8,489 bases of DNA, from NCBI GenBank assembly GCA_016201425.1, contig JACQCW010000019.1:1-8489 (forward strand), given 5' to 3'. A program made the translations under genes and the position numbers. Of the stretch, positions 1 to 8,489 are shown piece after piece. This DNA is from Candidatus Vogelbacteria bacterium. Lineage in GTDB: Bacteria; Patescibacteria; Paceibacteria; UBA9973; UBA12445. The notes under the pieces are model-generated. The model had not been told where the DNA came from, searched no databases, and was given only the letters and a program-made list of their open reading frames with translations. Positions within the stretch are counted from its first letter, which is position 1; each line of letters starts with the position of its first letter.

Positions 1-1
1 A

Positions 2-340
2 TATGTTTGGCAGAACAGTTTTATCACTGAACCACTTCGAAGGTTTATTGATAATCCTGAGATCATAGAGAAAATCTTTGATTCTCTTACGCCGCGCGAT
101 ATTAAGGCCTCGGATCCGATGTTTTATCTTTCGAGGTTAGCTCCGGTTTTTGTCCTTTACTTTTGTCTCTGCCTTCTTGGTCATAAGGACCAAGTTCATA
201 AACTGGATCCTTTATTCGATCTACTTGCAATGGGTGTGGTGCCGCACCATATCGAAATGATCGAAGATAAGACAGGCGAAGTTTGTCTTTGTGGTGAAAG
301 TCGAATTTGTGTTGCCGTGGAGCGTGATCTAGAAAAGTAG
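2..340 (+). CDS. 3' end of an unrecognised protein (5' truncated)
   Basis: The frame is open from the first bases of the window to a TAG stop at 338-340, giving 112 residues of a protein whose start lies upstream. The first in-frame ATG, at 119, has no special claim to be the start, because coding-like sequence continues upstream of it (for example FITEPLRRFIDNPEIIEKI). The fragment is mixed helical. It has a hydrophobic, cysteine-containing stretch (FVLYFCLCLLG) and ends in a charged tail with a CLCGE cysteine pair. I do not recognise the family and propose no function. A strong + strand terminator 15 nt downstream supports a real transcribed gene ending here. It is separated from serS by that terminator and a new promoter, so it is probably in a different transcription unit. 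Confidence 0.6.
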   Translation, partial: YVWQNSFITEPLRRFIDNPEIIEKIFDSLTPRDIKASDPMFYLSRLAPVFVLYFCLCLLGHKDQVHKLDPLFDLLAMGVVPHHIEMIEDKTGEVCLCGESRICVAVERDLEK

Positions 341-355
341 AGGATGTAAAGTTTG

Positions 356-390
356 GGCTGGTTCGATTGAATCAGCCTTTTTTATTTTAT
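356..390 (+). terminator. Rho-independent terminator after the partial gene
   Basis: A 9-bp stem (356-364 with 369-377, one G-U pair) closes a GATT tetraloop and is followed directly by six T residues and a further T-rich run. This is a textbook intrinsic terminator on the + strand. The T-tract runs straight into the serS promoter region. Confidence 0.9.
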
Positions 391-396
391 AAATTC

Positions 397-405
397 TGGT
401 AAGAT
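397..405 (+). promoter_or_regulatory. Extended -10 promoter of the serS operon, probably leaderless
   Basis: TGgTAAGAT is an extended -10 element (TG at 397-398, hexamer at 400-405). Its last base lies 7 nt before the serS ATG at 413, so transcription would begin at or within a base of the start codon. No good -35 is visible at 17 nt spacing, where the sequence is the terminator T-tract; the extended -10 could compensate. A weaker alternative, TATAAA at 388-393, would give a leader of about a dozen bases. Confidence 0.6.
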
Positions 406-412
406 TAATAAT

Positions 413-1684
413 ATGTTGGATATTAAATTTATTAGAGAAAATCCCGATCTTATTAAGGAGGCAGCGCGTAAAAAGCACCTTTCTTTTGATGTTGCGAAAC
501 TTCTTGAAGTTGATAAACAAAGATTGACTTTAATGACCGAGATAGAGCAGATGCGGGCAAAGCAAAACCAAGTGAGTGTAGAAATAACAAAGGCACAAGA
601 TCCGAATCTGAGGGCTGCACTTATTGCTAATATGAAACAGGTCAAGGATACGATGCAGAGACGTGATGAGGCACTTACTGAAATCATGAAGAGTTGGAGA
701 GAGTTGATGTTAACGGTACCAAATATTCCTGATATGTCCGTGCCCGAGGGAGAAAGTGATAAGGAAAATGTTGAGTTACGTACATGGGGCGAGCCAAAAC
801 AGTTCACATTTAAACCAATGAGCCATATCGACTTGATGACTAAGAACGATCTGGTGGATTTTGACCGTGGTGTGAAGGTCGCCGGCTTTCGAGGGTATTT
901 TTTAAAAAATGAGGCGGCACGAATGTCGATGGCTATTTGGCAGTTTGTGATGGATGAGCTGGTTCCAAAAGGTTTTACACCGATGATTGTTCCATCGCTT
1001 GTAAGGAAGGAGGCATTCTTGGGAACCGGATATTTGCCACAGGGTGAAGAAGACTTATACAAAACGCAAGACGGTAGTTATTTATCAGGAACTGCCGAGG
1101 TGGCCACGATGTGTTACTTCATGGATGAAATTTTGAAGAAGGAAGAACTCCCCAAAAAAATGCTTTCTTTTAATACCTGCTATCGTCGTGAGGCTGGTAG
1201 TCATGGTAAGGATACAAAAGGGCTTTATCGAGTGCATGAATTTAATAAAGTTGAGCAGGTGGTTTTATGTGAGGCGTCACATGAGACCAGCGTCAAGCTT
1301 CATGAAGAGTTAACCGCAAATGCTGAAAGGTTACTTCAGGCGCTACAGCTCCCGTATCGTGTCGTCGTAAATTGTGGCGGAGATCTTGGGTTGGGACAAG
1401 TTAAAAAATATGATATTGAAGTATGGATACCATCCGAAGAACGCTATGGTGAAACACATTCGTCTTCATACTTTCATGATTTCCAAACCAGGCGGCTTAA
1501 CATTCGATATCGTGATGAAGCCGATGGCAAACTCAGATTTGCCCATTCTCTCAATAACACAGCGCTCGCAACTCCGCGGCTTCTTATATCCATTATAGAA
1601 AATTATCAGAATGAAGATGGAACTATCTCGGTTCCTGAGGTCTTGAAAAAATATATAGGAACAGATTTGATTTCTAGAAAATAA
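413..1684 (+). CDS. serS: Seryl-tRNA synthetase
   Basis: Charges tRNA-Ser with serine in the cytoplasm (class II aminoacyl-tRNA synthetase). The 423 residues match the usual bacterial length of about 420-430. The N-terminus (MLDIKFIRENPDLIKEA) is the classic SerRS start, so the ATG at 413 is secure. Residues about 27-100 form the antiparallel coiled-coil arm that grips the tRNA long arm, followed by the NIPDMSVPEGESDKENVE and WGEP linker motifs. In the catalytic core I see TAE at 227-229 (serine-binding), motif 2 CYRREAGSHGKDTKG at 256-270 with HEF at 275-277, ETHSSS at 347-352, and motif 3 with its arginine at R389. Motif 3 is unusual: NNTALATPR (381-389) replaces the common NGSGLAVGR-type sequence. 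The gene heads an operon with the FtsQ-like gene 12 nt downstream. No Shine-Dalgarno is evident. Confidence 0.97.
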   Translation: MLDIKFIRENPDLIKEAARKKHLSFDVAKLLEVDKQRLTLMTEIEQMRAKQNQVSVEITKAQDPNLRAALIANMKQVKDTMQRRDEALTEIMKSWRELMLTVPNIPDMSVPEGESDKENVELRTWGEPKQFTFKPMSHIDLMTKNDLVDFDRGVKVAGFRGYFLKNEAARMSMAIWQFVMDELVPKGFTPMIVPSLVRKEAFLGTGYLPQGEEDLYKTQDGSYLSGTAEVATMCYFMDEILKKEELPKKMLSFNTCYRREAGSHGKDTKGLYRVHEFNKVEQVVLCEASHETSVKLHEELTANAERLLQALQLPYRVVVNCGGDLGLGQVKKYDIEVWIPSEERYGETHSSSYFHDFQTRRLNIRYRDEADGKLRFAHSLNNTALATPRLLISIIENYQNEDGTISVPEVLKKYIGTDLISRK

Positions 1685-1696
1685 GTACACAACGCG

Positions 1697-2599
1697 ATGG
1701 AGATTAATCGTGAGATATTTAAATCTTCAGTCAGGATAAAGGGCCGCAAATTTTATCGTTTTATACTATATGTTTTGTTTTTTGCTGCCTTTCTTTTTGC
1801 GTTACTTAATTTTATTTTTAAGTTGGATAAGTTAGCGATTAAACAAGTTTTTATCAGTGGAAACAAAAATATTGAAACAGGCCTAATCTATGATGTAACC
1901 AAAGAAAATTTGAGTGGAAATTATTACTATATGTTTCCTAAAAACAACATTCTAATTTACCCTAGGGATGAAATCGAGAACTCTCTTAAAAAGAATTTCA
2001 TGCGAATTAAATATGTAGATATAGCGAGCGTGCTAGGTAATTTGTCTCTATCGATAAGCGAGCGTGAACCTGCGTATTTGTGGTGTGATGATGCCGACAA
2101 AGATGCAATTGATAGAATTTGTTACTACCTTGACGAAGACGGATTTACGTTTGCTATTGCTCCACAATTTTCGGGAGATGTGTATTTGAGTTTTTATGGA
2201 GGTAATAAGCGTGGTGGGTATATGGGGCGGAGTGTATTAGAGACCGCGAGTTTTCACTCAATCGTGGACATAAAGAATTACTTTTTAAAAGCTATTACAT
2301 CAGAGCACATTCAGTTAGGAGTTTTAAGCGGAATTTACATATATAAAAATGGCGACTTCGATCTGCTCTTTGGCAACGGCAATTCAAAGTGGAGGTTGTC
2401 TATTAATCTACCGGAAGGCGATTCAATCAATTCACAATCTGAAAATTCGTTGGAAAGTAAGTTGTTCGCCATTCTTAATTCTCAAGTTTTTAAGGATGAA
2501 TTGAATCATGCAAACAATAAGCTTGAATATATAGATTTGCGATTTGGGAAAAAAGTGTTCTATAAGTTTAGCCACATTGGCTATATTGGTACCAAATGA
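1697..2599 (+). CDS. ftsQ: FtsQ/DivIB-like cell division protein (POTRA domain)
   Basis: Predicted bitopic divisome protein. In known bacteria FtsQ/DivIB links FtsL and FtsB to the septal peptidoglycan machinery. A basic cytoplasmic tail (1-20) precedes one membrane span (about 21-42). A POTRA-type region follows at about 47-125, with the VFISGNKNIE opening and the SISEREPAYLWC strand, then YLDEDGF and, near the C-terminus, IDLRFGKKVFYKF (279-291). These are the typical landmarks of FtsQ in order. At 300 residues it is of normal size. It has only two cysteines, C130 and C142, both in the predicted extracytoplasmic part. It follows serS by 12 nt, has no Shine-Dalgarno, and its TGA stop overlaps the next ATG (ATGA). 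No ftsA, ftsZ or mur genes are in the window, so it sits outside a classical dcw order as far as can be seen. Confidence 0.85.
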   Translation: MEINREIFKSSVRIKGRKFYRFILYVLFFAAFLFALLNFIFKLDKLAIKQVFISGNKNIETGLIYDVTKENLSGNYYYMFPKNNILIYPRDEIENSLKKNFMRIKYVDIASVLGNLSLSISEREPAYLWCDDADKDAIDRICYYLDEDGFTFAIAPQFSGDVYLSFYGGNKRGGYMGRSVLETASFHSIVDIKNYFLKAITSEHIQLGVLSGIYIYKNGDFDLLFGNGNSKWRLSINLPEGDSINSQSENSLESKLFAILNSQVFKDELNHANNKLEYIDLRFGKKVFYKFSHIGYIGTK

Positions 2600-4500
2600 A
2601 TCGTTCTCCCATCAAGCAGTATATTTTTTGGATATTGATTGTATTCTTACTCGGGTGGTTTTTGGGAATGACTTTTTACGCTCTGTCTACTCATATTTCT
2701 AGACATCTATCAGATAGTACTGGGAACCAAGGTGACAGGACCGACTCAGTTTTAGGAACAACATTACATTATAGAAAACCGTTAGAAGTACCAACGCTCT
2801 CAGTTTTAGATTTTAAGAAGGTCAAGTCAACAATTAAGGCCAAGTCTTTTTTAGTTAAAGACCTTGATAACGGATCAAATATTTTGCTACGTGACAGTGG
2901 AGACAAGTTACCGATTGCATCTGTGACTAAATTAATAACAGCAATGGTGGCCATCGATAACATGCATTCGGATGATATCGTTCAGATGTCGAAGAGGGCC
3001 GTAGATACTTTGGGTCATCAGGGGAATTTGGCTATTGGTGAAAAGTTTAAATTGATTGATCTCGTAAATTGTTTACTACTCGAATCGAGCAATGATGCCG
3101 CCGAAGCATTGGCAGAACATGTGGGTCGAGATAAGTTTCTTTTACTCATGAATAGCAAGGCACAGGAGATCGGTATGGCCAATACTAAGTTTAAAGACCC
3201 AAGTGGATTATCTATTTTTAACATTTCCACGACGGAAGATTTAACCACTTTGATTGAATATATTAGAAAGAATCGAACTGATGTTTTGGATATAACAGCT
3301 AAAAGATTTCACAAAGTTGTGGGTGGCAATATGTCTCATGATCATGTTTGGCTTAATCGAAATCGTCTCATCAGACAAAACAACGATTTTTATATTGGGG
3401 GAAAGGACGGTTTTACCAGCGATGCACTCATGACCTTTGTCGGCGTCTTTTCTGTATCTGTTACAGAAATAGATCAAAAGCGATTTTCGATTGCGTTATT
3501 GCGAAGTAGCGATAGAAATGGAGATGTTGATAGGATTCTTAGTGGCCTTACAGCCTCGCTACAATATCAAAGTGGTGGCTCTTTTGCTGATATGTTAAAA
3601 GAAAGGCGACTTACAAAGAAAGCGATTGAACCAGAAAAGAATGTTTCACTTATGTTTGTTGGCGATATAATGATGGACCAAGGCGTCCAACAGATGATTA
3701 ATTTACATGGCGGTGACTTCATGTTTCCATTTGAATATGTCCCGTTTTTAAAAGATTCAGATATTCTTTTTGCAAACCTAGATGGCCCTGTCTCAGATCA
3801 GGGATATGATTTGGGTAATGTCCACTCTTTTAGAATGGACCCCAAAGTTATACCCGCATTAGCTCAAGCGGGATTTACTGTGGTTTCATTGGCAAATAAT
3901 CATATTGGCGACTGGGGCCTGACGGCGTTCGAGGACACGCTGAATAGATTGAGGTCTGGTAATATTTTGCCTGTGGGAGCAGGGTATACTAAAAGTAATG
4001 CGAGTACGGTTAAAATCGTTGAAAGAAACGGTATCAAGGTGGGATTCTTAGGATTTTCTGATGTTGGTCCAACATGGTTGACACACAATGATAGTCTTCC
4101 TTCAATTTTATCTGCAAGCGATCCTGAAATTAAGAGTATAATTTCTAATGCTGCGAAAAAAGTTAATCATCTTGTTGTCTCATTTCACTTTGGAGAGGAG
4201 TATCGTAGTAAGGTCACGGATAGGCAGCGTGATTTGGCACACATGGCGGTAGACGCAGGGGCAAAAATAGTTATTGGACATTATCCCCATGTGGTACAAA
4301 AGATAGAGAGGTACAAAGGAGGTCTAATCGCGTATAGTCTCGGAAACTTTATTTTTGATAAGTCTCTTTCAAGGGACGCAACAAGCGGTGACATGCTAGA
4401 AGTTATTTTGGATAAGGCCGATATATTAGAGATAAATGAGAACCAGGTTGTGCAAAATGCCTATTTTCAGCCTCACCTCGTTGAGGAGTCTGGTAAGTAG
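2596..4500 (+). CDS. Membrane-anchored S11 D-Ala-D-Ala carboxypeptidase fused to a CapA-like domain
   Basis: A 634-residue two-domain envelope protein. A signal anchor at about 8-30 has no clear cleavage site or lipobox, so both domains should face outward. Residues about 70-320 form an S11 (DacA/DacF type) penicillin-binding domain with all three motifs: SVTK (S109 nucleophile, K112), SSN (164-166) and KDG (270-272). Such enzymes remove the terminal D-Ala from peptidoglycan stems. After a short linker, residues about 348-590 match the CapA/PGA_cap metallophosphatase-like family: VGDIMM (355-360), NLDGP (394-398), LANNHIGDWG (432-441), HFGEEY (531-536), GHYPHVVQ (561-568) and YSLGNFIFD (580-588). 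The exact substrate of CapA domains is poorly settled, and no capB or capC is present, so polyglutamate synthesis is not implied. The ATGA overlap with the FtsQ-like gene indicates coupled translation. The usual PBP5 C-terminal domain is absent. The domain identities are firm; the joint function is inferred. Confidence 0.9.
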   Translation: MNRSPIKQYIFWILIVFLLGWFLGMTFYALSTHISRHLSDSTGNQGDRTDSVLGTTLHYRKPLEVPTLSVLDFKKVKSTIKAKSFLVKDLDNGSNILLRDSGDKLPIASVTKLITAMVAIDNMHSDDIVQMSKRAVDTLGHQGNLAIGEKFKLIDLVNCLLLESSNDAAEALAEHVGRDKFLLLMNSKAQEIGMANTKFKDPSGLSIFNISTTEDLTTLIEYIRKNRTDVLDITAKRFHKVVGGNMSHDHVWLNRNRLIRQNNDFYIGGKDGFTSDALMTFVGVFSVSVTEIDQKRFSIALLRSSDRNGDVDRILSGLTASLQYQSGGSFADMLKERRLTKKAIEPEKNVSLMFVGDIMMDQGVQQMINLHGGDFMFPFEYVPFLKDSDILFANLDGPVSDQGYDLGNVHSFRMDPKVIPALAQAGFTVVSLANNHIGDWGLTAFEDTLNRLRSGNILPVGAGYTKSNASTVKIVERNGIKVGFLGFSDVGPTWLTHNDSLPSILSASDPEIKSIISNAAKKVNHLVVSFHFGEEYRSKVTDRQRDLAHMAVDAGAKIVIGHYPHVVQKIERYKGGLIAYSLGNFIFDKSLSRDATSGDMLEVILDKADILEINENQVVQNAYFQPHLVEESGK

Positions 4501-4533
4501 CGTCGATGTGCATAATTTTCGGCATTTATGAGG

Positions 4534-4539
4534 TATAAT
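4534..4539 (+). promoter_or_regulatory. Consensus -10 box for the membrane protein / AAA+ unit, probably leaderless
   Basis: A perfect TATAAT ends 7 nt before the ATG at 4547, predicting transcription from the start codon or the base before it. An in-frame TGA at 4529-4531 excludes any start further upstream. No convincing -35 is visible at 16-18 nt spacing. No terminator precedes it, so readthrough from the serS operon is also possible. Confidence 0.65.
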
Positions 4540-4546
4540 ATTACAC

Positions 4547-4942
4547 ATGGTTATTCTTAGGCTTATCGGAGACTATTTTATTTGGCATTATACAGTTGCT
4601 GTCAAAAATATTTTTTTCATGTGGTTTGATTTTGAGTGGTTCGCCTGGAATTATTTCTCTATAAAGCAACTAACAAGGACACTTTTTGTCCCATGGAAAA
4701 GGCTTGGCGAGAATACTAAAGATTATTTTGATTTGGGGGCTGTCTTAACTGCTGTTGTCGTCACGACACTTATGCGTTTACTCGGTGCGCTCATACGTTT
4801 GAGCACAATTATATTCGGATTATTTTTGATGGTCTTGCTTATTCCACTTTGTGTCCTAGCCTTGATCGCATGGATTCTGATGCCGGTTATTTTAGGCTTT
4901 ATTTTTGCGCTAGGAGTCGAATTACTTGTAAAAGCTTTCTAA
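4547..4942 (+). CDS. Small polytopic membrane protein of unknown function
   Basis: A 131-residue protein in two parts. The first 60 residues are rich in aromatics and probably lie on or partly in the membrane: WHY near 13, FFMWFDFEWFAWNYFSIKQL around 23-42, then RTLFVPWKRLGE. After a short polar stretch (about 55-62), almost continuous hydrophobic sequence runs from 63 to 123, enough for two or three spans. I recall similar proteins, with an FSI...TLF.PWKR signature, from Patescibacteria as conserved hypotheticals, but cannot check. The ATG is fixed by an in-frame stop 18 nt upstream and lies 7 nt after a TATAAT. The AAA+ gene begins 5 nt after its stop, so the two are almost certainly one transcript and possibly one membrane complex. 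No catalytic motif is visible, and no enzymatic role is suggested. Confidence 0.85.
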   Translation: MVILRLIGDYFIWHYTVAVKNIFFMWFDFEWFAWNYFSIKQLTRTLFVPWKRLGENTKDYFDLGAVLTAVVVTTLMRLLGALIRLSTIIFGLFLMVLLIPLCVLALIAWILMPVILGFIFALGVELLVKAF

Positions 4943-4947
4943 GCTCT

Positions 4948-7398
4948 ATGAAATTAAGTCAGTTCAATAAAAATACCATTCCATTTCTTCCAATTTTAGC
5001 TCTTGAGCAGGTTATTTCCCATAAAATTCGTCATCGTGTCATAACGGCAAGCCAATATATCATTGCCCTTTTTCTCGCAGGTTTGTGTATAAGTAAGCTG
5101 TATCACCATGTAATTCCGGTTTTAGCAAATTTATTAGGATTGGCACTTATACTAATAGGAATATCTGTTGTTGTTTCTCTGCTCGAAGCCTTTTTTCGAT
5201 CTTACTACTATTTTGGGATTACTTTTTCAGAATTGGATGCTGGTAGGATAATTTATCAAACTAAAAGTGGCGATGCTGTTAGGGCGTTGTTCTCGATTCC
5301 TTTGGGTGAAAAAATACGTCTAAGAGCCGGAATACCAATTGACTCCCTGAAGAGCTTTTTGATATCTCGTGGAGAAATTATGCCAGATATCGAATTGCCA
5401 GATGTGGGCCTTGATCATTTTTTTTCAACAAGTGATTTAGTCGGGGCAATGTTTAGGGGTGATGACAAGTTTTCGAAGTTTTTATTTGGGTTTGGAATCG
5501 GAGGAAAAGAGTTAATTCAGATTTTGGATTGGATTAATTACGAAAATGAGCGTTCCGCTAAAAAAGAGAGATGGTGGTCAAGGGAAAATTTATCCAACCG
5601 ACGGGCGATAGGTAAAGAGTGGTCATTTGGCCGTACGCCGATACTCGATAAATTTAGCACCGATCTCTCTATGGATCCGAATATTTTTAATCAAGGCAGA
5701 GAGAGATCGTACAGGAATGACTTAGTTGGGCAAATTGAAATTGTTTTTACAAGGGCAACGGGAGCGAACGTAATTGTTGTTGGTGATCCGGGAGTTGGGG
5801 TTTTTGGTGTTATTCTAGATTTTATTAGAAAGATTGTTTCTGGTCGGGTTAGTCCAAACATAGCCTATTCTCGAGTCCTCGATTTAGATTGGAACAAACT
5901 CATCTCAGAATCCAGGGAGAAAACTGTGTTTGAAGATAATTTTACGCGATGTTTAAATGAGTCGATTTATTCAGGGAATATAATTTTTGTAATCCAAGAT
6001 CTACCTTCTTTTATGGCCTCATCTGAAGCACTGGGCACACAGCTCTCAAGTTTACTTTCACCATATCTAGACAAGAATGTTCGGTTTGTGGCAACCGCAG
6101 ATCCTACGAAATTTCATCAACTCGTTGAAGCGAATTCAGTCTTTAACCAATATTTCGAAAAGATTAAAGTAGAGGAGCCAGATGAACAAAAAACTCTTGA
6201 GATTGTCGAAAAAAACTTGCGCGATGTAGAACTGTCTCATAACTTCACGTTCACATTTTTGTCCGTTAAAGAGATCATAAGATCCGCTACATATTATATA
6301 ACCTCTGGTGTTATGCCGAGTAAGGCGATAAATTTGGTTACTGAGTTATCCGCTCAAGCGTCTTTTGCTGGTCTTAAGGTTATAGGTAAAAGTGATGTTT
6401 TGAACTTTATTCGAACGAAAACCAATATACCAGTTGGCGATATTGGTCAAGATGAAAAACAGACACTTCTTAATCTGGAGGTTGAGTTGCATAAAAGAGT
6501 GATCGGCCAGGGGCAAGCGATTACGGCAATTAGTAATGCTATGAGGCGGTCTAGGGCAGGTGTGCGTGATCCTAAAAAGCCCATTGGTTCATTTCTCTTT
6601 TTGGGTCCAACTGGCGTTGGTAAAACTGAAACAGCAAAGGCTTTGGCGCAAATATTTTATGGAGATGAGAAATATATGTTACGCCTAGATATGACAGAAT
6701 ATCAGTCTGGTGATTCGCTTAATCGTCTGATCGGTTCATTCCAAGAAGGTAAACCAGGGGTTCTCTCAAGTATGTTGCGTGAAAGTCCCTATGGCGTTCT
6801 TCTTCTTGATGAATTTGAGAAAGCTGACAAAGATGTTTTGAATCTTTTTTTACAAATATTAGACGAAGGATTTTTTTCCGATATGACCGGCAAGAAAGTT
6901 TCCACGCAAAATATTATCTTTATTGCCACTTCGAACGCAGCGAGTCAGATGATATTTGATATTACTGAAAAAGGGAATGATCCTACTATATATAAAACAG
7001 ATATCATTAATAAGATTGTTTCAGATGGTATATATAAACCCGAACTCATCAATAGATTCGACGATGTGGTGATCTTTCATCCGCTTAATAAAGACGAGTT
7101 ACAACAGATCACGGGTTTGATGTTGAAGAAATTGGCCAAGAGGTTGCAGGAGAAGGGGATTGAGCTTGTAGTCAACCCACTGCTTACCGGCAAGATCATG
7201 AATGCTGGTTACAATAGAACCTTCGGTGCTCGACCGATGAACCGTGCGATACAAGAGCAGGTGGAAGAACCTATTGCAAAAAAAATAATCGAAGGCAGCC
7301 TCATCCCAGGCGCAAAGATGGAGTTTACAGAAGCAGATTTTCCAACCACTGAGCCAGATGTCTCAGGTTCTATATTAGGAGAAACTACCAAGTCTTAG
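4948..7398 (+). CDS. Membrane-anchored Clp/Hsp100-like AAA+ ATPase with a degenerate first ATPase domain
   Basis: An 816-residue double-AAA+ protein. Two hydrophobic segments (about 33-52 and 55-83) form a membrane hairpin. A divergent region follows, perhaps a remnant Clp N-domain around 155-200, then a linker with TPILDKFSTDLS as in ClpC/ClpB. D1 (about 256-470) aligns along its length with ClpB/ClpC but looks dead: Walker A is GDPGVGVF (279-286, no K[T/S]), the Walker B acidic pair is QD (350-351), and the arginine-finger ERRF position reads NQYF (400-403). D2 (about 500-790) is intact: GPTGVGKT (553-560), LLLDE (618-622), sensor 1 TSN (661-663), INRF (701-704) and GARP (760-763). There is no M-domain between D1 and D2, no clear IGF/VGF ClpP-docking tripeptide, and no GYVG pore loop. 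The start at 4948 is chosen 5 nt after the previous stop; an in-frame ATG at 4849 would add 33 residues read out of frame from the upstream gene. A remodelling role at the membrane is inferred. Confidence 0.9.
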   Translation: MKLSQFNKNTIPFLPILALEQVISHKIRHRVITASQYIIALFLAGLCISKLYHHVIPVLANLLGLALILIGISVVVSLLEAFFRSYYYFGITFSELDAGRIIYQTKSGDAVRALFSIPLGEKIRLRAGIPIDSLKSFLISRGEIMPDIELPDVGLDHFFSTSDLVGAMFRGDDKFSKFLFGFGIGGKELIQILDWINYENERSAKKERWWSRENLSNRRAIGKEWSFGRTPILDKFSTDLSMDPNIFNQGRERSYRNDLVGQIEIVFTRATGANVIVVGDPGVGVFGVILDFIRKIVSGRVSPNIAYSRVLDLDWNKLISESREKTVFEDNFTRCLNESIYSGNIIFVIQDLPSFMASSEALGTQLSSLLSPYLDKNVRFVATADPTKFHQLVEANSVFNQYFEKIKVEEPDEQKTLEIVEKNLRDVELSHNFTFTFLSVKEIIRSATYYITSGVMPSKAINLVTELSAQASFAGLKVIGKSDVLNFIRTKTNIPVGDIGQDEKQTLLNLEVELHKRVIGQGQAITAISNAMRRSRAGVRDPKKPIGSFLFLGPTGVGKTETAKALAQIFYGDEKYMLRLDMTEYQSGDSLNRLIGSFQEGKPGVLSSMLRESPYGVLLLDEFEKADKDVLNLFLQILDEGFFSDMTGKKVSTQNIIFIATSNAASQMIFDITEKGNDPTIYKTDIINKIVSDGIYKPELINRFDDVVIFHPLNKDELQQITGLMLKKLAKRLQEKGIELVVNPLLTGKIMNAGYNRTFGARPMNRAIQEQVEEPIAKKIIEGSLIPGAKMEFTEADFPTTEPDVSGSILGETTKS

Positions 7399-7404
7399 AC
7401 TTGG
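7388..7404. repeat. Perfect inverted repeat over the AAA+ stop codon
   Basis: CCAAGTC and GACTTGG flank a TTA spacer, giving a 7-bp stem with a 3-nt loop that contains or abuts the TAG stop (7396-7398). No T-tract follows, so it is not a terminator on its own. It could stabilise the mRNA 3' end or be chance. Confidence 0.6.
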
Positions 7405-7428
7405 CCTCAGGTGTAAATATTGATTTCA

Positions 7429-7470
7429 CTCGCGTTGCCCAAAAGCAATAGCGGGTTTTCTTGTTTTTGT
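7429..7470 (+). terminator. Rho-independent terminator after the AAA+ gene
   Basis: Positions 7429-7438 pair with 7445-7455 (ten pairs, two of them G-U, with one bulged A at 7450) around a 6-nt loop. The stem is followed by TTTTCTTGTTTTTG. Its position 30 nt after the stop and before a new promoter fits the end of the membrane protein / AAA+ unit. Confidence 0.75.
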
Positions 7471-7489
7471 GATGATTTTTTGATACTGT
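7461..7489 (+). promoter_or_regulatory. Promoter of dus, probably leaderless
   Basis: TTGTTT (7461-7466) lies 17 nt upstream of TACTGT (7484-7489), which has an extended TG at 7481-7482. The -10 ends 7 nt before the dus ATG at 7497, the same spacing as the other two promoters here. The -35 lies inside the T-tract of the preceding terminator. The hexamers are imperfect, so the call leans on the repeated spacing. Confidence 0.5.
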
Positions 7490-7496
7490 CAAATTA

Positions 7497-8489
7497 ATGG
7501 TAAAAGGATTTTGGGAAAAATTAAAGAAGCCAATATTTGCTTTGGCACCGATGGCGGATGTTACCGACGCGGCTTTTCGGCGTATTATTGTTAAGTATGG
7601 TAAACCAGATGTGATGTGGACAGAGTTTGTGTCATGTGATGGATTATGCTCATCTGGTAAACCAAAATTATTGAAAGACTTATGGTTTACGGATATAGAG
7701 CGGCCAATTGTGGCGCAGTTTTTTGGTGCTAAACCTGAGAACTTTTACAGATGTGCAAAATTAGCTTTGGAGCTTGGCTTTGATGGTATTGATATAAACA
7801 TGGGATGTCCGGATCGATCTATTAATAAACAGATGGCATGTGCGGAGCTCATTAATAATCCTGAGCTTGCCAAGATGATTATTAGAGAAACAAAACGTGG
7901 GGCAGAAAATTTACCCGTATCTGTTAAAACACGTGTTGGATATAATAAAGAAAATTTAGATGAGTGGTTAAAAAATTTATTGAGCGAAACTCCTGCCGCG
8001 ATAGTTATTCATGCGAGAACAAAGAAAGAGTTATCGCTTGTGCCTGCGCGATGGGAATTAATTGCGAGAGCTAAGGAGATCGCCAAAGATAGTGAAACTT
8101 TAGTAATTGGCAATGGTGATGTAAAAGATCTCCGTGATGCTTATAATAAGATCAATCAAACTGGTGCCGATGGGACGATGCTTGGTCGTGCGGTATTCGG
8201 AAATCCATGGTTATTTAGTGACTATAATCGCACGAAGTCACTGAAGAAGTTCGAGTCAAAAGAGTCTACACTGTTTGTAGATAAGAAGGCGACACTTACA
8301 TTAAGCGAACGGCTTAAAGTGATGCTTGAACATGCGGAACTTTTTGATGAGCTTTATACCGGGATCAAAAGTTTTGCTCTAATGCGAAAGCATTTTGGTT
8401 CGTATGTTGGGGGATTTTCTGGAGCAAAGGAGCTTCGCGTGCAATTGATGGAGGCTGAAAATTCAAAACAGGTACAGAAGATTGTTGAG
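7497..8489 (+). CDS. dus: tRNA-dihydrouridine synthase (3' end outside window)
   Basis: FMN- and NADPH-dependent reduction of uridine to dihydrouridine in the tRNA D-loop region. The frame is open to the last base, giving 331 residues with no stop, so the gene is cut by the window edge, probably near its end. Family motifs in order: APMADVTDAAFRR (17-29), NMGCPDRSINK (101-111) with the catalytic cysteine at C104, VKTRVGY (143-149) with K144, IHART (171-175) with H172, IGNGD (204-208), and GADGTMLGRAVFGNPWLF (223-240). The C-terminal helical tRNA-binding region is under way from about 265 (KSFALMRKHFGSYVGGFSGA). The ATG at 7497 is the only plausible start, as an in-frame TGA lies at 7473-7475. 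Whether it matches DusA, DusB or DusC specificity cannot be told. Departures from common Dus sequences, such as R and I in place of the usual K and V after GCP, look clade-specific and leave the catalytic residues intact. Confidence 0.95.
   Translation, partial: MVKGFWEKLKKPIFALAPMADVTDAAFRRIIVKYGKPDVMWTEFVSCDGLCSSGKPKLLKDLWFTDIERPIVAQFFGAKPENFYRCAKLALELGFDGIDINMGCPDRSINKQMACAELINNPELAKMIIRETKRGAENLPVSVKTRVGYNKENLDEWLKNLLSETPAAIVIHARTKKELSLVPARWELIARAKEIAKDSETLVIGNGDVKDLRDAYNKINQTGADGTMLGRAVFGNPWLFSDYNRTKSLKKFESKESTLFVDKKATLTLSERLKVMLEHAELFDELYTGIKSFALMRKHFGSYVGGFSGAKELRVQLMEAENSKQVQKIVE

Follow-up and report, generated by a model that had tools for sequence, protein, structure and literature searches.

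A Clp-like gene in an 8,489-base stretch of Candidatus Vogelbacteria DNA (contig JACQCW010000019.1, positions 1 to 8,489; hereafter the window) belongs to a paralogue family that is spread through Patescibacteria, and it is paired with the gene for a small membrane protein directly upstream. The Clp-like protein carries a predicted N-terminal membrane hairpin and two AAA+ modules, of which the first (D1) has lost its catalytic motifs and the second (D2) keeps all of them, and the canonical aromatic residues of the threading loops are missing from both. We put the probability at about 53% that the two proteins constitute a two-component, single-engine membrane machine of Patescibacteria, which probably remodels its substrates without threading them, in the manner of Torsin and NSF. 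An earlier note, made from the sequence of the window alone, had proposed a membrane-tethered Clp-like protein with one dead and one live ATPase ring. Its coordinates and residue numbers (VF at 285-286, QD at 350-351, NQYF at 400-403) proved exact and its reading frame intact; it overlooked the membrane partner at 4547-4942 and the disappearance of the canonical aromatics from the threading loops of D1 and D2. The parts of the Clp-like protein are as follows.

4948..7398, + strand: membrane Clp-like AAA+ protein of 816 amino acids (homologue searches, Pfam, alignment)
5038..5094, + strand: predicted hydrophobic helix 1, residues 31-49 (hydrophobic segment prediction, AlphaFold2)
5119..5175, + strand: predicted hydrophobic helix 2, residues 58-76 (hydrophobic segment prediction, AlphaFold2)
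5218..5568, + strand: N domain at residues about 91-207, all-helical and putatively a divergent Clp_N (hhalign, AlphaFold2 model)
5653..6372, + strand: D1 AAA+ module, catalytically degenerate, residues about 236-475 (alignment, AlphaFold2, structural superposition)
6445..7320, + strand: D2 AAA+ module with D2-small domain, residues about 500-791 (Pfam, alignment, structural superposition)

The D1 changes were assessed in two collections: 137 family members, comprising 118 loci (117 plus the window) and 19 database proteins, and a comparison set of 50 canonical Clps. A phylum search covering 286 genomes supplied 109 of the loci, from its higher-scoring rows; eight came from a genome scan, and one is the window itself. 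The canonical-like open reading frames (ORFs) of loci L144 and L160 were reassigned from the family to the canonical set before counting. About half of that set (24/50) derives from the homologue search, about a dozen of these being near-copies of one type, and two of its proteins, P0022 and P0029, are themselves incomplete in D1. The window protein has the following D1 sites.

5782..5805, + strand: degenerate D1 Walker A GDPGVGVF, residues 279-286, with K/T changed to V/F at 285-286 (alignment)
5995..6000, + strand: degenerate D1 Walker B, DE changed to QD at residues 350-351 (alignment)
6145..6156, + strand: degenerate D1 arginine-finger site NQYF, residues 400-403 (alignment)

In an alignment with ClpB-, ClpC- and ClpA-type proteins, these changes fall exactly at the canonical K/T, DE and RR columns, which confirms that all three D1 signatures are gone. 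The 16 closest homologues (P0002-P0017; full length, 33-74% identical) show the same condition: K-T/S is present in the D1 Walker A of none of them, K alone being retained in P0010, P0011 and P0013; none has the Walker B DE; and the RR pair occurs only in P0017, with a single R in P0005, P0011 and P0014. An intact D1 Walker A and B was thus absent from every close relative, and sequencing error or a recent change, either of which the earlier note had allowed for, can be rejected. Neither K nor DE nor the RR pair survives in the window protein or in P0002-P0009, its eight nearest relatives; what is left is an S in the T/S column of P0009 and one R in P0005.

Across the family, the complete D1 combination (K-T/S, DE and RR) was found in 0 of the 137 members, compared with 48 of the 50 canonical proteins. 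The single motifs are less uniform: K persists in 107 members, K-T/S in 54, DE in 26, and K-T/S together with DE in 22, whereas at least one R of the finger pair remains in 25 and RR in 2; 26 members have none of K, DE or RR. Thus, the RR pair has been lost generally in the family, as have the pore aromatics described below, and the D1 Walker motifs to varying degrees. The joint loss envisaged in the earlier note holds for the window protein, but a single loss event is rejected. In the putative order of events, the window protein and its eight nearest relatives would represent the end stage of D1 loss. Mean core identity among the nine closest members is 0.60 for D1 and 0.82 for D2, the reverse of the pattern in 24 canonical rows (0.70 and 0.66, respectively). 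Because their D1 core is less conserved than D2, D1 appears to have been kept as structure, under weaker constraint. The pattern of motif conservation supports the view that D1 is an apparently non-catalytic tier and that D2 is the only likely engine of the protein. The corresponding D2 sites are these.

6604..6627, + strand: intact D2 Walker A GPTGVGKT, residues 553-560 (K and T in 137/137 members)
6796..6813, + strand: intact D2 Walker B, residues 617-622, overlapping LLLDEFEK at 618-625 (D and E in 137/137)
7054..7056, + strand: intact D2 arginine finger R703, in NRF at 702-704 (137/137)
7231..7233, + strand: intact D2 sensor-2 R762, in GARP at 760-763 (136/137)
6733..6759, + strand: shortened D2 pore loop 1 GSFQEGKPG, residues 596-604, without the canonical aromatic (alignment)

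Sensor 1 is likewise preserved (TSN at 661-663 in the window protein), its N being present in 137/137 members. The claim that D2 keeps every motif is therefore correct for all of the ATPase motifs but not for pore loop 1, which is of the GYVGYEEGG type in canonical Clps and is shortened here, with the canonical aromatic missing; F598 of the window protein lies inside the loop, at the canonical Pro column. An aromatic residue occupies the canonical D2 pore column in only 3 of the 137 members (L105, L151 and L165), compared with 50/50 canonical proteins, and the canonical D1 pore column in none, compared with 44/50. The D2 loop measures 13 residues in 50/50 canonical proteins, 12 or fewer in 112 of the 137 members and 13-14 in the other 25. 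The disappearance of the canonical pore-loop aromatics argues against the usual Clp threading mechanism. No insertion of the size of an M domain was found in the 137 members, in all of which the segment equivalent to residues 403-511 is 100-129 residues long, compared with at least 160 residues in 38 of the 50 canonical rows, a set that includes short-segment types. A ClpP-loop-like tripeptide of the (I/L/V)GF type was detected in D2 of one of the 137 members, where we judged it spurious, and in 36 of the 50 canonical proteins.

Pfam searches, alignment and a structure model all support the placement of the protein in the Clp/Hsp100 family, with two Clp-type AAA+ modules, a D2-small domain and a predicted N-terminal membrane hairpin. 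The frame opens with the ATG at 4948, and its N-terminus, MKLS.F, is common to close homologues. At an E-value of 0.001, Pfam recognized D2 in the window protein (AAA_2 and ClpB_D2-small), and no ATPase model covered the D1 core; PF07724 and PF10431 were present in 27/27 family members scanned. The D1 of the window protein could still be aligned to ClpB by phmmer against PDB sequences. An AlphaFold2 model built from a 27-row alignment (mean predicted local distance difference test score (pLDDT) 85, predicted template modeling score (pTM) 0.77) contains a pair of helices of membrane length, an N domain that is entirely helical, and the two AAA+ modules. Over residues 229-801 the model can be superposed on ClpB and ClpC: 563 residues fit 9gi1 at 4.8 Å, for instance, and 295 D2 residues fit 4lj7 at 1.7 Å. 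The nearest PDB profile matches, among the best 60 of 83, were ClpC and ClpB. The phmmer alignment and the superposition thus bear out the Clp-like fold that had been ascribed to D1. The hairpin is supported by the two hydrophobic segments and by AlphaFold2 helices at 25-52 and 57-89, both of membrane length, which cover them; one or more hydrophobic helices lie ahead of D1 in 134 of the 137 members and in 1 of the 50 canonical proteins. The N domain of the family matched canonical Clp N domains by hhalign (probability 98.6, E 1.1e-15), whereas Pfam Clp_N was not matched in the window protein and was not among the 25 of 49 families listed for the 27 members scanned.

The second component is encoded immediately upstream, with its stop codon 5 bp ahead of the ATG of the Clp-like gene.

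4547..4942, + strand: membrane partner protein of 131 amino acids with three predicted helices, 2-36, 39-44 and 63-130 (profile searches, model)

The model of the partner (pLDDT 94) consists of these three helices only, with no AAA+ fold, and Foldseek returned no PDB match for it at E≤0.001. The partner family has the motif FFS..L..TLF.PW.R. A search at E≤1e-4 yielded 1136 proteins, the window's own included; no Pfam match was found in the window's partner or in the best 120 of the 1136 relatives. An NCBIfam match to IcmV (E 0.074) was taken as chance. The partner gene lies directly upstream of the Clp-like gene in 97 of the 118 loci and is fused to the N-terminus of the Clp-like protein in 19, and at the two exceptions (L007 and L184) a partner match was still found at the locus. 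The fusions occupy several separated places in the tree, for example L008/L127, L123 and a 10-locus clade. As a control, the partner profile was compared with the 6759 ORFs of 72 loci that surround other Clp genes, and it matched none of them at E<1. Viewed from the partner side, 133 rows were found in 130/273 genomes. Among the 83 strongest (E up to 5e-10), 73 adjoin a listed family gene, nine more adjoin one on reading the DNA and one is at a contig edge; the 50 weaker rows include 38 that are adjacent, three on other contigs and nine without a listed family row for comparison. The association is thus established by adjacency and fusion, and the two proteins probably form a physical complex. 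At L215 (2436-4331) and L214 (2106-4400), the partner is fused almost directly to D1-D2, with the N domain reduced or missing, which suggests that the partner may be able to serve as a membrane anchor. Partner profile A4 matched 73/145 genomes of Patescibacteria, 0/151 genomes of the phylum of a Chloroflexi genome and 1/149 genomes of the phylum of a Streptococcus genome, the last with an E-value of 0.008 and six stops; an earlier profile, A2, matched 0/6 single genomes tried from other phyla.

The family is broadly distributed and separate from canonical Clps. In a FastTree phylogeny of D2 only (294 columns, with 47 of the 50 canonical rows retained after identical or gappy rows were dropped), a single branch (support 0.978) separates all 137 members from all 47 canonical proteins. 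A group of 18 members with D1 Walker A and B kept branches first, with weak support (0.54-0.62). The phylum search gave a match at 1e-80 in 270/286 genomes, canonical Clps counted in, and the two-gene module was verified in at least 110 of the 286; prevalence is a lower bound, lower-scoring rows having entered only when they were reached through partner matches. Members were detected by the genome scan in records that bear the names Taylorbacteria, Parcubacteria, Magasanikbacteria, Moraniibacteriota, Saccharimonadales and Saccharibacteria. The eight genomes of L001-L008 have separate canonical-type Clp genes beside the family member, as called from split matches and, for L090-L092, from sequence, and a ninth genome scanned (L012) yielded a canonical-type protein (L089) only. 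A further profile search for homologues returned 34 proteins, none of them new. The architecture that the earlier note considered unusual for an Hsp100 protein, with its predicted hairpin and dead D1, is supported by sequence and models, and it belongs to a family across Patescibacteria rather than to one odd protein.

Several members and relatives have individual peculiarities. L144 (9114-11687) and L160 (2915-5665) each contain a ClpC-like gene with complete D1 and D2 motifs about 3-4 kb from the family gene and on the same strand; these neighbours may be remnants of the duplication from which the family arose. The family gene of L007 (3458-5988) is interrupted, appearing with an in-frame TGA in the search and as two overlapping frames, which could reflect a different genetic code or an error. 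Members of 924-925 amino acids occur at L005 (7167-9938) and L111 (1189-3963), and the former opens with a CxxC-rich stretch that has the appearance of a zinc-binding extension. P0022 has Clp_N, no predicted membrane helix and a degenerate D1 (no K, ED for DE, no RR), and its D2 pore loop is canonical in length and aromatic, which marks it as a separate dead-D1 Clp.

We propose that the family consists of Clp/Hsp100 paralogues that would be anchored at the cytoplasmic face of the membrane by the hairpin and by the small partner, supplied either from the neighbouring gene or within the same polypeptide. A double ring, presumably hexameric, is probable, with D1 as a passive tier and D2 as the sole module to hydrolyse ATP. 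With the ClpP-docking loop lost, and with it the canonical aromatics by which the two rings would grip a substrate, such a machine most likely neither threads nor degrades proteins. A review of Pex1/Pex6 (PMC9265785, accessible part) describes two modes of action for AAA ATPases, pulling by pore loops and movements of the N domain, and the loss of the canonical loops makes the second mode the likelier one for this family. Movements of the ring driven by D2 would then reach the hairpin and the partner by way of D1 and the N domain, and a membrane-protein complex would be remodelled, assembled or dismantled, as Torsin and NSF do with theirs. The pattern of conservation is consistent with this proposal, in that what seems to have been conserved is the D2 engine and the route to the membrane (hairpin and partner), and what seems to have been discarded is the D1 engine, the gripping residues and the ClpP dock. 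A more specific version, in which a Clp-like gene gave rise to a non-threading Hsp100 machine of Patescibacteria, a counterpart of Torsin whose hairpin and partner replace the pulling loops and which moves an envelope complex, is tentative, and we would wager against it, if not heavily.

Some observations weigh against the proposed two-component, non-threading machine. D1 Walker A and B are both retained in 22 of the 137 members, and for that reason a passive D1 is unproven beyond the near relatives of the window protein. No membrane helix is predicted ahead of D1 in P0018, in L179 or in L007, which is truncated, and the backbone supports of the D2-only tree are low. The refined partner profile was built on the same loci in which it was counted, the starting 8-row profile (from 8 of the 118 loci) having found 99 sequences as opposed to 115 for the refined one, and three weak partner matches (E 0.0015-0.009), which may be chance, are on other contigs than the family gene. 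An aromatic residue is found anywhere in the D2 loop in 36 of the 137 members, F598 of the window protein included (50/50 canonical proteins), and elsewhere in the D1 loop segment in 27 (anywhere in that segment, 49/50 canonical proteins). The D2 loop is also of canonical length in 25 members, and the canonical column is aromatic in L105, L151 and L165, as noted above. With such off-column aromatics and canonical-length loops in some members, threading by other residues is possible.

These last observations are the substance of the strongest rival, in which the protein is an extractor or unfoldase of membrane proteins that still threads through D2 with non-canonical loops and delivers its substrates to the cytoplasm or to another protease. 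An intact D2 engine on a Clp fold would suit such a role, as would the loops that retain an aromatic or their full length, and Pex1/Pex6 is described as threading despite its dead D1 in the part of PMC9265785 available. That complex, however, has aromatic D2 loops, which the family mostly lacks, and the canonical aromatic is lost from 134 of the 137 members in D2 and from all 137 in D1; we consider a threading unfoldase unlikely, although it deserves to be taken seriously. It is less probable still that the protein is an ATP-controlled switch or scaffold, in which ATP binding by D2 would only drive assembly of the ring around the partner and perform little mechanical work. Strict conservation of the D2 site alongside a dead D1 and the loss of canonical substrate-handling residues would fit that idea, but 137/137 members retain the Walker B Glu and the arginine finger, residues with a role in hydrolysis and not just in binding. 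A membrane-localized ATPase of a ClpP-dependent protease, as implied by the public annotation of relatives as "ATP-dependent Clp protease ATP-binding subunit" and by the overall similarity to ClpC and ClpB, is very improbable: the ClpP-loop-like tripeptide is missing from 136 of the 137 members and present in 36/50 canonical proteins, the canonical threading aromatics are lost, and a partnership with ClpP is accordingly not supported. Finally, a decaying pseudogene or an assembly error, which the several catalytic losses in D1 might suggest, is refuted by the open frame, by the absence of K-T/S and DE from D1 in 16 close homologues too, by the strong conservation of D2 and by the pairing with the partner in many genomes.

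The surroundings of the gene provide a weak lead to the function of the proposed remodelling machine. The window contains serS, a gene for a 300-amino acid protein, a D-Ala-D-Ala carboxypeptidase/PGA_cap fusion, the 131-amino acid membrane protein, the 816-amino acid Clp-like gene and a dus gene truncated at the contig end. The fusion ORF (2596-4500) encodes an S11 D-Ala-D-Ala carboxypeptidase-type domain and a PGA_cap (capsule synthesis) domain in one frame. The 300-amino acid protein (1697-2599) matched nothing in Pfam or NCBIfam at a threshold as lax as E 10 and has an FtsQ-like appearance by eye that is unproven. Among the neighbours of family genes at 89 loci, named by eye, were RsmH (14), MraZ (13), an MraY-like transferase (13), an FtsL-like protein (11), MurT (8) and GatD (8). 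Cell-wall and division genes in different lineages hint at envelope or division complexes as a possible substrate, but the lead is only a weak one because many ordinary housekeeping genes likewise recur around the family loci.

Patescibacteria are among the largest bacterial radiations and have small genomes. A two-gene ATPase module is widespread among them, yet a full-text literature search gave no description of the family among the matches listed, most subscription papers and bioRxiv preprints being beyond its reach. One predicted clp protease gene of TM7x appears in the accessible part of PMC10768705 and could not be linked to this family, and the terms "Clp" and "AAA" are absent from the main text of PMC10633639 as far as it was available. 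Genetic tools for Saccharibacteria are published there, and the family should therefore be experimentally testable, given its occurrence in records with that name. The protease-subunit label on some relatives is probably wrong. If the family does not thread, it would be a naturally occurring case of a bacterial Hsp100 engine put to a different purpose, and it could serve as a model for the action of Torsin.

Among known systems, ClpC, ClpB and ClpA are the nearest by sequence and structure, sharing the order and fold of D1 and D2 and the D2-small domain; the N domain may be a divergent Clp_N. The family differs from them in having membrane helices, a dead D1 and a dedicated membrane partner, and in lacking the canonical pore-loop aromatics, the M domain and the ClpP loop. 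Human CLPB/Skd3, which has a single active D2-type engine of the ClpB kind, no D1 and ankyrin repeats, was also among the best 60 of 83 PDB profile matches. FtsH, a membrane-anchored bacterial AAA+ protein, has a pair of membrane helices at its N-terminus, a single AAA module and a zinc protease domain; in contrast, Pfam matched no peptidase domain in the window Clp-like protein, and Peptidase M41 was not among its matches at E 0.001 or 0.01. Pex1/Pex6 and NSF (type II) belong to an AAA subfamily other than Clp/Hsp100. Like the family, Pex1/Pex6 combines a D1 ring without hydrolysis motifs with a live D2, but it retains aromatic D2 loops, with which it threads substrates (PMC9265785, accessible part), whereas the family is mostly without them.

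Orthology to Torsin has no support, Torsin being absent from the best 60 of 83 PDB profile matches, which does not exclude it. Torsins have one AAA+ module. They are Clp/Hsp100-related and membrane-associated and have no aromatic pore loops, and the AAA+ fold of their membrane cofactors LAP1 and LULL1 is itself degenerate, with the cofactor supplying the arginine finger (Torsin review PMC5425593, accessible part). As far as that account extends, the likeness lies in a Clp/Hsp100-type ATPase at the membrane, in the absence of aromatic pore loops (the D2 loop being aromatic somewhere in 36/137 family members), in a membrane partner and, when LAP1/LULL1 is included, in a degenerate AAA+ module that forms part of the assembly. 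In the family, however, the degenerate module sits in cis with the live one, and the partner is small and helical, with no AAA+ fold. Thus, by analogy, the family may work like the Torsin system, but it is no Torsin, because it possesses two modules, of which D2 supplies an arginine finger of its own (R703, 137/137).

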